64,000 nucleotides of DNA from Blautia sp. BIOML-A1 (GTDB lineage Bacteria > Bacillota > Clostridia > Lachnospirales > Lachnospiraceae). Every line of letters starts with the position of its first letter. Positions within the stretch are counted from its first letter, which is position 1. The translations under genes and the position numbers were made by a program. The notes below the pieces were generated by a model. It had not been told where the DNA came from, did not search any database, and saw only the letters and a list, made by a program, of their open reading frames with translations. Shown here one piece after another: positions 21,155 to 37,593 of the stretch. The stretch covers positions 1-64,000 of the forward strand of contig NZ_WWVR01000008.1 of assembly GCF_009883055.1 (NCBI RefSeq), written 5' to 3'.

Positions 21155-23410
21155 TTACATTCTGTCGTGGCAGGTTCTGGCAATAACATCCAGCTGCTGC
21201 TCTCTTGTAAGGTCGATGAATTTAACAGCATATCCGGATACACGGATTGTGAAGTTTGCATACTCTTCTTTTTCCGGATGTTCCATAGCATCGATCAGTT
21301 TTTCTTTACCGAATACGTTAACATTGAGGTGATGAGCACCCTGATCAAAGTATCCGTCAAGTACACGAACAAGGTTCTCTGTACGTTCTTCTTCTGTATG
21401 TCCCAGAGCATCAGGGTTGATGGTCTGAGTATTGGAGATACCGTCAAGGGCATCTTCATAGTCCAGTTTTGCAACAGAGTTGAGGGAAGCAAGAAGTCCG
21501 TTCTGCTCTGCTCCGTAGGACGGGTTGGCACCAGGTGCAAGCGGTTCGCCTGCTTTTCTTCCATCCGGAAGGGATCCTGTAGCTTTACCATAAACAACAT
21601 TGGATGTAATGGTAAGAATGGAAGTAGTAGGTTTGGAATCACGATAGGTATGGATGTGTTTCAGTTTCTCAAGGAATGTAGAAAGCAGTGTTGTTGCGAT
21701 CTCATCTGCTCTGTCATCATCGTTACCATAACGTGGGAAGTCACCTTCTACAATGAAGTCTGTTGTGATTCCGTCTTCGTCACGAACAGCTTTAACTTTT
21801 GCATATTTGATAGCGGACAAGGAGTCTACTACGTGAGAGAATCCAGCGATACCAGTTGCGAAAGAACGGTCAACCTTTGTATCGATCAGAGCCATCTCTG
21901 CTGCTTCATAGTAGTATTTGTCATGCATGTAGTGGATCATGTTCAGTGTTCCAACATACAGATGAGCCAGCCAGTCCATCATCTTGTCATATTTAGCAAC
22001 TACTTCGTCATAATCAAGATACTCAGAAGTAATCGGCTGATAGTTCGGTCCTACCTGCTGTTTTGTCTTCTCATCAACACCACCGTTGATAGCATACAGA
22101 AGGCATTTTGCAAGGTTTGCACGCGCTCCGAAGAACTGCATTTCCTTACCTGTCTCAGTAGCGGATACACAGCAGCAGATGCTGTAGTCATCGCCCCATA
22201 CCGGACGCATAACATCATCATTCTCATACTGAACAGAGCTTGTCAGCACGGAGATGTCAGCTGTATATTTTTTGAAGTTTTCAGGCAGTCTTGAAGAATA
22301 CAGAACTGTAAGGTTCGGTTCCGGAGCCGGTCCCATGTTTTCCAGTGTATGCAGGAAACGGAAGTCGTTCTTTGTTACCATGGAACGTCCGTCCTGTCCC
22401 ATACCTGCTACTTCCAGAGTTGCCCATACCGGGTCACCGGAGAACAGCTGGTTGTAAGAAGGAATACGGGCGAATTTAACCATACGGAATTTCATTACCA
22501 TGTGGTCAACAAGCTCCTGAGCTTCTTTCTCTGTAAGAGTTCCGTTAGCAAGGTCTCTTTCGATATAAACATCAAGGAATGTGGAGATACGTCCAACACT
22601 CATTGCAGCACCGTTCTGAGTCTTGATTGCTGCCAGATATCCAAAGTACAGCCACTGGAATGCTTCTCTTGCATTTTTAGCCGGCTCGGAAATATCAAAT
22701 CCGTATGCTTCAGCCATAACTTTCATTCCTTTAAGAGCACGGATCTGATCTGCGATCTCTTCACGAAGCTGGAAGTCATAACGTCTCATACCCTGACGGT
22801 CGCATGCTGCGAAGTCTTTCTGTTTTCCTTCGATCAGAGCATCGATACCATACAGAGCAACTCGTCTGTAGTCACCAACGATACGTCCACGTCCGTAAGT
22901 ATCCGGAAGACCTGTCAGGATCTTGCTGTGACGGGCTAATTTCATCTCTGGTGTGTAGATATCAAATACACCCTGGTTATGTGTTTTGAATTCATAGTTG
23001 TGGAATACGTCTTTGATCTTGTCACTTACCTTGTATCCGTAAGTTTCGCAGGCCTGCTCTGCCATTTTGATTCCACCGTATGGCATAAATGCACGTTTCA
23101 GCGGTTTGTCAGTCTGAAGACCAACAACTGTTTCAAGATCTTTGAGATCTTCGTCGATGTATCCTGGGCCATATGCTGTCAGAGATGTAACAACCTCTGT
23201 TTCCATATCCAGAACTCCGCCTTTGGCACGTTCTTCTTTCTGCAGTTCCTGAAGTTTTCCCCACAGTTTATTTGTTGCTTCTGTTGGTCCTTCCAGGAAG
23301 GAAGCGTCTCCGTCATATGGTGTGTAGTTCATCGAGATAAAGTTACGGACGTCGATTTTTTCTTTCCAACGGTTTCCTTTGAAACCTTCCCACTGTGAAA
23401 AGTTTTTCAT
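21155..23410 (-). CDS. pflB: Formate acetyltransferase (pyruvate formate-lyase)
   Basis: Glycyl-radical enzyme converting pyruvate and CoA to acetyl-CoA and formate in anaerobic fermentation; cytoplasmic, 751 residues. The active-site cysteines lie in a run of three ([10 protein letters not shown]), and the radical glycine is Gly726 (RVSGYAVKF), 25 residues from the end as usual. ATG with AGAGAGGTGC. A well-spaced promoter and a palindromic site lie 95-150 bp upstream. High expression is expected from codon choice and the near-consensus promoter. Confidence 0.97.
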
Positions 23411-23674: not shown

Positions 23675-23702
23675 AAAAAAAGCAGCTCTCGCTGCTTTTA
23701 TA
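23675..23702 (-). terminator. Terminator of the TetR gene
   Basis: AAAAGCAGC, loop TCTC, GCTGCTTTT; overlaps the last codons of the regulator gene and runs into a T tract on the minus strand. Confidence 0.75.
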
Positions 23703-24333
23703 TTTCCCCATTCCATACATCAATATGCAGTAGATGAAACAGCAAGGCAAATATGGACTGATAGATCGTTCGTTCCTTAAGTGCTGTACTGTCCATATAT
23801 CCAAGATGCATCTTAACAGCTACAGACACTGTACTGTCAACAATATTGGAAACGATCACTTCAGCATCCATAAGATCAGATACTCCAGACAGTTTCCCAA
23901 GTGTTTCTACATAATCAATAAGCACTTTATATTCCTGCTGGCGGACCTTCAAAATCTCCCTGGTATAACGTGCAGACTGATAAAATCTCCAGTAAAACAC
24001 TGTCCGCTCAGGATCACTCATGAGAAATTTCCAATAAGCACTCCACAAAGTCCAGCACGTTTCTTCTGATTCCTGTGCGGTCCTTTGTTCGGTTGTCTGC
24101 TTCTCGATCAGCGCTTTCATCATCCCTGCAATTTCACTGTCTATCTCAAGAAAAGAGGTTTCCATCAGATCAAAGAGATCTCTGTAACACTGGTAAATAT
24201 ATGGATCGGAAAGTTCACATCCTTTGGACACTTTACGAACAGTAACCCCCTCGATTCCATCTTCTGTTACTACCTTGTACACTGAACGCCGAAGCCTTTC
24301 TCTCAGTTCTTCCCGAGTATATTTACGAGCCAT
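23698..24333 (-). CDS. TetR/AcrR family transcriptional regulator
   Basis: A 211-residue protein with an N-terminal helix-turn-helix (about 10-55; VTEDGIEGVTVRKVSKGCELSDPYIYQCYRD) and a helical ligand-binding domain. ATG after AGGAGGAAGG. Monocistronic, with its own terminator. It is divergent from the TerD-AIM24 pair and upstream of pflB; either could be a target, and nothing in the sequence decides it. Confidence 0.85.
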   Translation of the reverse strand: MARKYTREELRERLRRSVYKVVTEDGIEGVTVRKVSKGCELSDPYIYQCYRDLFDLMETSFLEIDSEIAGMMKALIEKQTTEQRTAQESEETCWTLWSAYWKFLMSDPERTVFYWRFYQSARYTREILKVRQQEYKVLIDYVETLGKLSGVSDLMDAEVIVSNIVDSTVSVAVKMHLGYMDSTALKERTIYQSIFALLFHLLHIDVWNGEI

Positions 24334-24620
24334 TCCTTCCTCCTGTAATTCTGCAACTGGCTGGCTCGTTTACGGCCCCTATAGCTTTGCGTCACTGCGT
24401 TACCACAGTTTTGCCCTTTATAAAGTTAAATTTATCATATCCTAATTTTTTCCTTTTTTCAACTGCTGCGTCAAAAATTAACAAAAATTAATGTAATTAC
24501 AAATTTATTTGCTAAACTCGTTTATCCAATTTTTATAAAAATATTATTACTCCCTCTGCCCCATAACATGATATGATAAAAACAGAAAACAACCTGACAG
24601 TTAACACAGGGAGGTAGATC
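24334..24620. promoter_or_regulatory. Divergent promoter region, TetR versus TerD
   Basis: AT-rich spacer without a gene. TATGAT near 24571 could serve as a -10 for the plus-strand TerD gene; no good -35 is seen. No riboswitch or clear operator was recognised. Confidence 0.35.
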
Positions 24621-35488: not shown

Positions 35489-37069
35489 TCAGATATTCAG
35501 AAGATCACTGAATACCCTAAGTGCTCCATCTGTTTCATGGGCAAGCACACGTTTTGCAAGGACTTTACCAAGCTGTACACCCTCCTGGTCAAAGCTGTTT
35601 ACATTCCACAGGAATCCCTGGAACATAACCTTATTCTCAAAGTGTGCAAGAAGTGCACCAAGAGCTTCCGGTGTCAGCTGCTCACCGATGATGATGCTTG
35701 ACGGACGTCCGCCCTCGAAGTTCTTATTGCGGTTTTCATCTTCTTTACCGCAGGCAAATGCTACGATCTGAGCAGCAACATTGGCACAGAGTTTCTGCTG
35801 GCTTGTGCTGTCCTGGATCACTACATCCGTACCAATCTGACTGTTTTTGAATCCGATGAACTGAAGCGGTACAATGTCAGTTCCCTGATGCAGAAGCTGA
35901 TAGAAGGAATGCTGTCCGTTGGTTCCTGGCTCACCGAAGATAACCGGTCCTGTCACATAATCTACAGGCTCACCAAAACGGTTTACGGATTTACCGTTGG
36001 ATTCCATATCAAGCTGCTGAAGGTGTGCCGGGAAACGGCTCAGTGCCTGAGAATATGGAAGAACTGCTGTGCTTGGATATCCAAGTACGTTACGCTCATA
36101 AACACCGATCAGTGCATCCAGCATAGCCGGGTTCTGCATTACATCTTTGTTTGTTGCAAGTTTATCCTCTGCTGCTGCTCCATCCAGGAACTGTGCGAAG
36201 ACTTCCGGTCCGAATGCCAGAGATAATACAGCACCGCCTACAGCAGATGTGGAAGAATAACGTCCTCCGATATAGTCATCCATAAAGAATGCTGCAAGAT
36301 AGTCATCACTCTTTGCAAGAGGTGATGTCTCACTTGTAACTGCGATCATATGTCTGGATGCATCCAGTCCTGCATTCTTAAGGGCATCTTTTACAAAGGA
36401 TTCATTTGTCAGAGTTTCCAGAGTTGTTCCTGATTTGGAAACCAGTACAAAAATGGAATGTGCAACATCGATAGAGTTCAGGACTGCTGCTGCATCATCA
36501 GGGTCTACATTGCTGATGAACTTCGCTTCCATTTTGAATTTACCGTTTTTCTTTGCCCAGTTCTCAAGTGCAAGATACATTGCACGAGGACCAAGGTCAC
36601 TTCCACCGATACCGATCTGAACAACTGTTGTAAATTTCTCTCCAGCTGCGTTTGTGATTTCTCCGGCATGTACCTTATCTGCAAATTCTGCAATTCTCTT
36701 CTGCTGCTCTGTATAGAAAGCTCTCTTGTCAGCTCCGTCAGCCTCAACTGCATTTCCAAGCTGACCGCGTGTCATATGATGAAGAACAAGACGTTTCTCT
36801 CCTGTGTTGATCACTTCTCCATTGTAAAGAGCTTCAAATTTCTCAGTAAGCTGTGCTTCCTCTGCCAGTTTCTTAAGTCCTTCCAGAACTTCATCGTCTA
36901 CCTTTTTGGCTGCAAAGTTATAGGAAAGTCCCTCTGTCATCGAAACGCTGTAATTCTTTACACGTTCTGCTCCATTCTCTCCTGCCATAACCTCTGCAAG
37001 GTCTACTTTTTTAACTCCTGCAAGTTCTTTAAAAGATGCAAGTGTATCCAGATTGTTCCAGGTAATCAT
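35489..37069 (-). CDS. pgi: Glucose-6-phosphate isomerase
   Basis: A 526-residue cytosolic glycolytic enzyme interconverting glucose 6-phosphate and fructose 6-phosphate. Both sugar-isomerase domains are present: IGIGGSDLGPRAMY with SNVDP and FVLVSKSGTT in the first, GGRYSSTSAVG, then the LQQLDMESNGKS and GEPGTNGQHSFYQLLHQG motifs with the catalytic Glu and His. Ribosome site AGGAA before the ATG. Apparently monocistronic with an unusually long leader. Confidence 0.96.
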   Translation of the reverse strand: MITWNNLDTLASFKELAGVKKVDLAEVMAGENGAERVKNYSVSMTEGLSYNFAAKKVDDEVLEGLKKLAEEAQLTEKFEALYNGEVINTGEKRLVLHHMTRGQLGNAVEADGADKRAFYTEQQKRIAEFADKVHAGEITNAAGEKFTTVVQIGIGGSDLGPRAMYLALENWAKKNGKFKMEAKFISNVDPDDAAAVLNSIDVAHSIFVLVSKSGTTLETLTNESFVKDALKNAGLDASRHMIAVTSETSPLAKSDDYLAAFFMDDYIGGRYSSTSAVGGAVLSLAFGPEVFAQFLDGAAAEDKLATNKDVMQNPAMLDALIGVYERNVLGYPSTAVLPYSQALSRFPAHLQQLDMESNGKSVNRFGEPVDYVTGPVIFGEPGTNGQHSFYQLLHQGTDIVPLQFIGFKNSQIGTDVVIQDSTSQQKLCANVAAQIVAFACGKEDENRNKNFEGGRPSSIIIGEQLTPEALGALLAHFENKVMFQGFLWNVNSFDQEGVQLGKVLAKRVLAHETDGALRVFSDLLNI

Positions 37070-37558
37070 ACTAGATTCCTGCTACTTGAAACATATACAA
37101 CTACGTATATGCCAGATGATTCGCTATAATCTCGCGATTTATAGTTACTGCTTCAATGTGTATGCTTTGGTAATCACTAAGTGATTTACTACTCGCAGAT
37201 CCATGTACACTCCACAGTCGTAAATTCCCGACTAAGCCATCGGTACATACCTATAAATTCATAACTTGATTAGATATAGGTTTTGTCTTCATCTGAAATA
37301 GCTTTTCCTTTCCTAGTTTTTAATATTTTGCCACTTGGTTTTCGTGGACTTATACCATTGCTCAGCTGTTACCATCGGGATTCTATTCCTTAGTTAGCAA
37401 GACTGTTTCAACTTGCACTGGCTTTTTTCCTACAACTCCAGCTGCTGTTACGTCAGCACGAACGAATACCTCGGATTTCAGGTATCTTTGAGTATATTAA
37501 CTCACTATTATAATTGTCTTCAGCTGCTTATACAATTCTCCCTATTAGAAAACATTTC
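37070..37558 (-). ncRNA. Structured ~490-nt leader of pgi; possible IS200/IS605 right-end relic
   Basis: Transcribed from the promoter at 37565-37593 and running to the pgi start with no intact frame. It can form several hairpins: GATACCT-type near 37485, ATGTAC/GTACAT enclosing AGTCG/CGACT (37202-37245), AATCAC/GTGATT near 37175, CTATAA/TTATAG (37124-37144) and CATATAC/GTATATG (37092-37111). The part around 37225 (GTCGGGAATTTACGACTGTG) and the GAAGCAGTAA plus hairpin at 37124-37155 resemble the degenerate 3' end of tnpB and the right-end hairpin of IS200/IS605 elements. I recognise no riboswitch family. Confidence 0.4.
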
Positions 37559-37564
37559 TTTTTT

Positions 37565-37593
37565 ATTATAATACAACTGCATTCTTCAAACAA
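37565..37593 (-). promoter_or_regulatory. Promoter of the pgi leader
   Basis: On the minus strand TTGTTT (37593-37588), 17 bases, TATAAT (37570-37565): perfect -10, acceptable -35, optimal spacing. It predicts a start near 37558 and hence a leader of about 490 nt. Confidence 0.6.

Follow-up and report, generated by a model that had tools for sequence, protein, structure and literature searches.

An ORF-less IS607-type element with a TnpB guide RNA probably lies inside the Shine-Dalgarno sequence of pgi in Blautia

The pgi leader and the element within it

The window analysed here (the whole 64,000-nt stretch at positions 1 to 64,000 of contig NZ_WWVR01000008.1 from Blautia sp. BIOML-A1) encodes a glucose-6-phosphate isomerase, pgi, on its reverse strand. 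The initial annotation had described a perfect TATAAT ahead of this gene and a long non-coding leader, and both are present, the leader extending for about 490 nt downstream of the pgi promoter. The -35 hexamer matches the consensus at three of six positions with a spacer of 17 nt, and the promoter is therefore absent from the list generated by our promoter scan, which requires four of six -35 matches. Hairpins are found in the leader, as had been claimed, but its folding energy is not significant when taken alone (z -1.91, with 7 of 100 shuffles equally stable). The features identified at the locus, all on the minus strand, are as follows.

35489..37069, minus strand: pgi, glucose-6-phosphate isomerase (PF00342, E 9.3e-128)
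37059..37078, minus strand: presumed 20-nt guide, made up of the spacer and first pgi codons (from its position after the right end; length from PMC11061315, excerpt)
37079..37126, minus strand: right end, a palindromic CATATAC..GTATATG followed by AAGTAGCAG, common to the compact copies
37079..37265, minus strand: guide-RNA scaffold, of inferred extent, by analogy with the 187-nt ISFba1 scaffold (PMC11061315, excerpt)
37145..37218, minus strand: RAGATH-18 RNA (RF03064; 64.4 bits, E 1.6e-10, gathering 44.9)
37327..37489, minus strand: internal folded RNA domain, unclassified (from covariation and the scores of models R2 and R3)
37490..37537, minus strand: left end (TnpA-binding end), with the same motif order after AGGAG as in the tnpB-bearing loci L083, L272, L273 and L274
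37079..37537, minus strand: whole ORF-less IS607-type element, 459 nt (ends placed from other copies and relatives' pgi leaders)
37538..37550, minus strand: left flank TTCTAATAGGGAG, which contributes the upstream portion of the split Shine-Dalgarno sequence (from the sequence and relatives' leaders)
37565..37593, minus strand: pgi promoter, with -10 TATAAT at 37570-37565 and a weak -35 TTGTTT at 37593-37588 (read from the sequence)

A search against RNA family models returned RAGATH-18, a TnpB-linked RNA, as the only Rfam match above gathering in the leader stretch, and this RNA is complete within the element. Since RAGATH-18 forms the core of the IS607-type TnpB guide RNA (PMC11061315, excerpt), the leader holds the guide-RNA core of an IS607-type TnpB. 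This bears out the earlier suggestion that a TnpB-type transposon contributed its right end and guide RNA to the leader, the segments quoted in its favour lying in or beside the RAGATH-18 match, while reassigning the element from the IS200/IS605-like group named there to the IS607 family. The guide had been placed from about 37115 downwards; with the right end of the element at 37079, the published scaffold layout would instead put it at about 37078 to 37059, running across the pgi start codon. In ISFba1 the scaffold is 187 nt long and a 20-nt guide was the most active (PMC11061315, excerpt).

The window was found to lack tnpA and tnpB, in line with the absence of tnpB noted previously, as a tblastn search with two TnpBs and two TnpAs yielded a single 33-residue match with E 0.77. 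Because 10,258 of 16,029 RAGATH-18 RNAs (64%) adjoin IS607 TnpBs (PMC11061315, excerpt), a tnpB neighbour is not universal. Read in the direction of pgi transcription, the locus consists of AATAGGGAG, the element from AATTGTATAAG to AAGTAGCAG, and then GAATCTAGTATG at the start of pgi. The boundaries, with AG before the left end and CAG closing the right end, are of the IS607 type without target duplication, as described for CsISt1 (PMC4227781, excerpt). Just upstream of the guide RNA (window 37251-37313, minus strand) there is a strong Shine-Dalgarno-like AGGAAAGGA followed by an ATG and a 13-codon ORF. Tiny, variable ORFs of this kind were also seen in several other copies and may be remnants of the start of a lost gene. 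Translational coupling via a leader ORF was considered and set aside, as the distance between the end of a small ORF and the host start varies and none of these ORFs is conserved (14 copies).

To place the element relative to the native translation signals, we compared the pgi loci of relatives (the best 80 of 582). A Shine-Dalgarno (SD) core lies within 20 nt of the pgi start in 79 of these 80 loci, and reads AGGAG in 46; many of the leaders are short, for example AAGGAGGAATC..ATG. Predicted pairing with the 16S tail amounts to -4.3 kcal/mol across the junction as it now stands and to -10.8 kcal/mol once the flanks are rejoined, against a median of -10.85 kcal/mol for native pgi SDs in 54 scorable leaders. 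Judged by these energies, the element is located inside the pgi SD and splits it, with an AGGA left at the right junction 7 nt before the pgi ATG. Of these best 80 among 582 loci, 76 include 600 nt or more upstream of pgi, and in none of the 76 did blastn (E 1e-3) find the element. A leader conserved ahead of pgi among relatives was therefore not borne out, an ancestral riboswitch-like role is unsupported, and a riboswitch was rejected as the identity of the leader.

IS607 TnpBs have been assigned the target-adjacent motif (TAM) AGGAG in 18 of 22 strains and GAGGG in the other 4 (PMC11061315, excerpt), whereas the corresponding position in the window reads GGGAG. As single TAM changes abolished cleavage by ISFba1 in the same study (PMC11061315, excerpt), the guide may be inactive on the window allele.

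Compact copies, their sites and their full-length relatives

The initial annotation had also entertained a decaying relic with tnpB gone; what is found is neither a decayed tnpB nor peculiar to pgi, but an ORF-less element that has both a left and a right end as well as an internal RNA domain and a guide RNA, and that recurs at many other sites. A blastn search of 299 genomes from the family of G001 (the [Ruminococcus] faecis genome of locus L001) gave matches in 31, mostly across the guide RNA alone. R1, a sequence model of the 5' domain, matched 7 of 397 family genomes and, in a second, overlapping draw, 6 of 299, all of them within the matching genomes of the first draw. When R2 was applied by genus, copies were identified in 1 of 1, 1 of 6 and 0 of 1 genomes, the last of these (G247) having only copies cut by contig ends, and a pattern scan of an order-wide sample detected copies in 1 of 392 genomes. 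Further copies are present in Butyrivibrio virus Ceridwen (one phage record) and in IMG/VR contigs.

Copies, whether complete, partial or decayed, lie ahead of hisS (L085), rpoA (L092), rpmI and rplT (L087), efp (L250), the trigger factor gene tig (L254), thiI (L097), and genes for a 3-hydroxyacyl-CoA dehydrogenase (L251), an ABC ATPase (L242) and a protein with ODP beta-lactamase and flavin-reductase domains (L084), together with phage genes that include a tail-fibre-like (L081) and an excisionase-like (L241) gene. Among these, rpoA, rpmI, rplT and hisS are generally regarded as essential genes. Each start of the successive operon genes rpmI and rplT has a decayed copy before it (L087, 1490-1754 and about 2009-2332). 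Ahead of hisS, L264 and L265 have a right-end relic, TGAGTGGCAG, in the order SD, short CCACTC/GAGTGG hairpin, start codon; in a sister genome (G209), a compact copy occupies the hisS SD that corresponds to this relic. In addition, two IMG/VR phage contigs carry two compact copies apiece before different genes, both insertions being common to both contigs (L142 with L240/L256, and L200 with L238).

We then measured placement relative to host genes, counting a site as positive when an ORF of 60 or more codons (40 or more where a contig end truncates it) starts at +3 to +13 from the right end. An ORF start was found 4-11 nt after the right end in 19 of the 21 compact copies with a visible right end; in L234 and L257 an ATG follows, but without a long ORF. 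Random points of the same loci passed in 616 of 8400 cases (7.3%), and AGGAG sites in 440 of 1792 (window plus 80 pgi loci, with the pgi SDs themselves included). tnpB-bearing elements pass the same test in 19 of 23 cases (of 25 tnpB-type loci, 23 have a recognisable right end). At the left junction, by eye, 13 of 15 readable compact copies have AGGAG, the window has GGGAG and L142 has AAGAAG. The empty site corresponding to L084 is provided by L268, which reads AAAAAAAGGAG directly followed by GACGCATTGATG; the left flank of L084 itself is partly deleted, SD included. In sister phages, exact-pattern scans and blastn did not find empty sites. The copy L258 (genome G676) and the viral-contig copy L219 are identical across 354 nt, while their flanking sequences differ.

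Eleven TnpB-like places were noted on the Peptoclostridium acidaminophilum plasmid NZ_CP007453.1 (L261, L262). The two RAGATH-18 elements examined there have right ends 8 and 10 nt before an ATG, and SD placement is thus not confined to one family.

Several loci harbour fuller relatives of the compact element: L083, L272 and L273 encode both tnpA and tnpB, and L274 encodes tnpB with a broken tnpA. In all four, AGGAG precedes a left end that opens with a few variable nucleotides and then reads TAAGTAATT, as in the compact copies; right ends of tnpB-bearing elements read AGTGGCAG or AGTAGCAG. In L083, L272 and L273, tnpA occupies the place that the internal domain takes in compact copies, and the domain is absent from all four of these elements. 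Among the R1 matches in the 397 family genomes, we noticed no full element with an internal domain. By this comparison of layouts, the tnpA-tnpB block is replaced in compact copies by a conserved folded RNA domain. Genome G676 possesses two compact copies (L258 and L259) alongside the full relative L272, the TnpB of which is 92% identical to that of L083. Apart from the window's genome, TnpB relatives were identified at E 1e-20 in five of eight compact-bearing genomes and were not found at that threshold in the other three.

MITE-like non-autonomous elements need no ORF to move, have the ends of full elements and occur in several copies per genome. On the evidence of their shared ends, lack of an ORF of their own and multiple copies, the compact copies are best described as non-autonomous (MITE-like) IS607 elements; identical copies at different sites are a further common feature. 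Unlike such elements in general, they have kept the TnpB guide RNA complete and contain an internal RNA fold that is conserved. IS607 TnpA uses a 2-bp GG for the exchange, creates no target duplication and occupies the left end starting at about bp 8 (PMC6188088, excerpt), which fits the variable first bases of the left ends. The dinucleotide shared at the exchange here appears to be AG, as described for the IStron CsISt1 (PMC4227781, excerpt).

A conserved internal RNA domain

The structure of the internal domain, of about 160 nt, was derived from A2, an alignment of 11 copies with the window among them. Standard pairs are formed in 97.6% of its cells, and 18 of 32 pairs have changed on both sides, compared with at most 3 when the structure is slid along the alignment, a lenient control because the structure was derived from the same A2 sequences. 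None of 500 shuffles reached this double-changed number; the count of pair types was no higher than in shuffles (395 of 500). The main helix is formed across copies by AAACAC/GTGTTT, AGTTGT/ACAGCT, AATCAT/ATGATT or AACTAC/GTAGTT.

Two models were built on the same alignment, one structured (R2) and one of sequence only (R3); as they were calibrated differently, comparison of their scores is indicative only. The window, itself 1 of the 11 training rows, scored 170.3 bits with R2 and 117.8 bits with R3. Among decayed copies outside the training set, R2 and R3 gave 65.7 and 36.8 bits for L247, and 33.2 and 13.7 bits for L250, while L254 and L251 scored 46.2 and 22.3 bits with R2 and had no match with R3. 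When the main helix was put to a null test copy by copy, the result was not significant in eight of nine decayed copies, and in the ninth, L109, another helix was found. For this reason the model scores alone were used for decayed copies, and persistence of the main helix was not accepted as demonstrating selection at the host level.

Against Rfam, the domain gives only a few weak matches, all of them below gathering. As a control we used L260, an IS607 element of a Selenomonas plasmid, which we take to be SrISt1. It scores 74.7 bits for RAGATH-18 and 49.7 bits (E 6.2e-10) for the group I intron, just below the gathering value of 50. Given that the control matches RF00028 whereas the domain does not, a group I intron was rejected as the identity of the domain, though not as an analogy. 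RF00028 matched none of 60 family genomes, two of which (G024 and G055) bear compact copies, and matched 3 of 14 control genomes. A weak helix crossing the main helix (A2 columns 27-30 with 96-99) gave rise to the idea of an HDV-like ribozyme, in which a catalytic cytosine is expected at that position. This candidate was also rejected, since the crossing helix shows no double change and the expected cytosine is, by eye, absent in most copies.

Proposed mobilisation in trans and possible fates of the pgi transcript

The explanation that we favour, and consider probable, is that a non-autonomous IS607-family (RAGATH-18) element lies inside the pgi SD, is mobilised in trans and targeted to SDs, and encodes a guide RNA directed at the empty form of its own site. 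A TnpA from another element would move the compact element, exchanging at an AG dinucleotide, and the pgi promoter would then transcribe it. TnpB, likewise supplied in trans, would load the element RNA with the pgi start as its guide and would cut empty pgi sites having a suitable TAM, which would favour retention of the element. Placement at SDs would follow from the identity of the target/TAM, AGGAG, with the SD core. Since only about one AGGAG site in four is followed by an ORF start, targeting is probably supplemented by the survival of those insertions that are tolerated, and part of the SD placement could be due to survival instead. pgi itself would be translated by way of the weak AGGA at the right junction, from mRNA freed of the element by the internal domain, as in IStrons, or by both routes; such removal would restore the SD.

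These two routes to translation divide the main alternatives. It is quite conceivable, if short of likely, that no rescue takes place at the RNA level and that pgi is translated through a weakened SD, the AGGA composed of the terminal AG of the element and the flanking GA, with the domain serving the element alone. This AGGA may suffice at its distance of 7 nt from the ATG, and tnpB-bearing elements lie at SDs without the domain; however, L081 (-0.2), L142 (-0.4), L247 (-0.8), L259 (-0.8) and L097 (-0.9) are left with almost no SD, and decayed copies retain their domain pairing scores. We give a tentative and slightly lower rating to an ORF-less IStron, in which a new or very reduced self-splicing domain would remove the element from pgi mRNA and join AGGGAG to GAATCTAGTATG; excision by the internal domain is, correspondingly, possible without being likely. 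The covariation of the domain and the group I intron that precedes the genes of the RAGATH-18-bearing Selenomonas element are consistent with this, as are CsISt1, with its insertion after AG and its terminal CAG, and the existence of the ORF-less BcISt1 (PMC4227781, excerpt). Furthermore, SD energies after rejoining range from -7.7 to -14.5 in 10 of 11 computed copies, compared with -0.2 to -6.5 unjoined. Against splicing, the domain and the 60 family genomes lack a group I match although the control has one, tnpB-bearing elements without the domain split SDs too, rejoining gives L142 no SD (-1.9), and the left end or SD has been lost in some old copies (L087, L097, L084). We regard as rather unlikely the more far-reaching proposal that the domain belongs to a novel class of RNA, self-splicing (or ribosome-bridging), through which a TnpB-guided transposon without genes can occupy the SDs of essential genes, the AGGAG TAM and the SD niche being the same motif by evolution.

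A foldable spacer, by which the folded element would draw the upstream SD near the start codon for the ribosome to bridge without splicing, seems improbable: the hisS relic in L264 and L265, with its SD, CCACTC/GAGTGG hairpin and start, speaks for it, but the two ends of the folded 455-nt stretch (37079-37533) do not pair with each other in the predicted fold and a 459-nt bridge would be extreme. Least probable of all is a domesticated riboregulator or guide RNA controlling pgi, since, although the element constitutes the pgi 5' UTR with its internal fold intact, it is absent ahead of pgi in 76 of 76 relatives (from the best 80 of 582), unrelated genes follow related elements, and the element itself interrupts the target of its guide.

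A 2024 paper in Science reportedly deals with IS607 IStrons and their group I introns and guide RNAs. Relative to IS607 TnpB systems such as ISFba1 (PMC11061315, excerpt), the non-autonomous element favoured here is alike in its RAGATH-18 core, in right-end position and, for most copies, in its AGGAG-type left flank, but lacks tnpA and tnpB, has an extra internal RNA domain and, in the window, follows GGGAG. It shares with group B IStrons (IS607 plus group I intron), including CsISt1 and the ORF-less BcISt1 (PMC4227781, excerpt), a layout of left end, RNA domain and 3' end, AG/CAG boundaries and the occurrence of ORF-less forms; however, its domain is not recognised as group I, splicing is here putative, and group B IStrons are mostly intragenic whereas the compact elements are at SDs. 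The excerpted text of Tourasse 2014 (PMC4227781) does not mention SD or ribosome-binding placement, nor does that of Ren 2024 (PMC11061315) mention Shine-Dalgarno or ribosome, and within the open-licence literature, including excerpts of PMC13418256 and PMC6188088, we came across no description of IS607 or TnpB elements placed at SDs. Our reading would make the ribosome-binding site the biological target to which the AGGAG TAM of IS607 TnpBs corresponds, with gene-less elements carrying guide RNAs ahead of genes for RNA polymerase, ribosomal proteins, a tRNA synthetase and glycolysis. It also exposes an unclassified conserved RNA domain with splicing, bridging and element-only functions as candidate roles, and suggests a conflict between guide RNA and host protein, which would share the same transcript.

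Elsewhere in the window, a c-di-GMP-I riboswitch (24349-24425, minus strand; 63.9 bits) precedes a gene for a TetR-like regulator (23698-24333) and, further downstream, a pflB-like formate acetyltransferase gene (21155-23410), both genes being named by eye.
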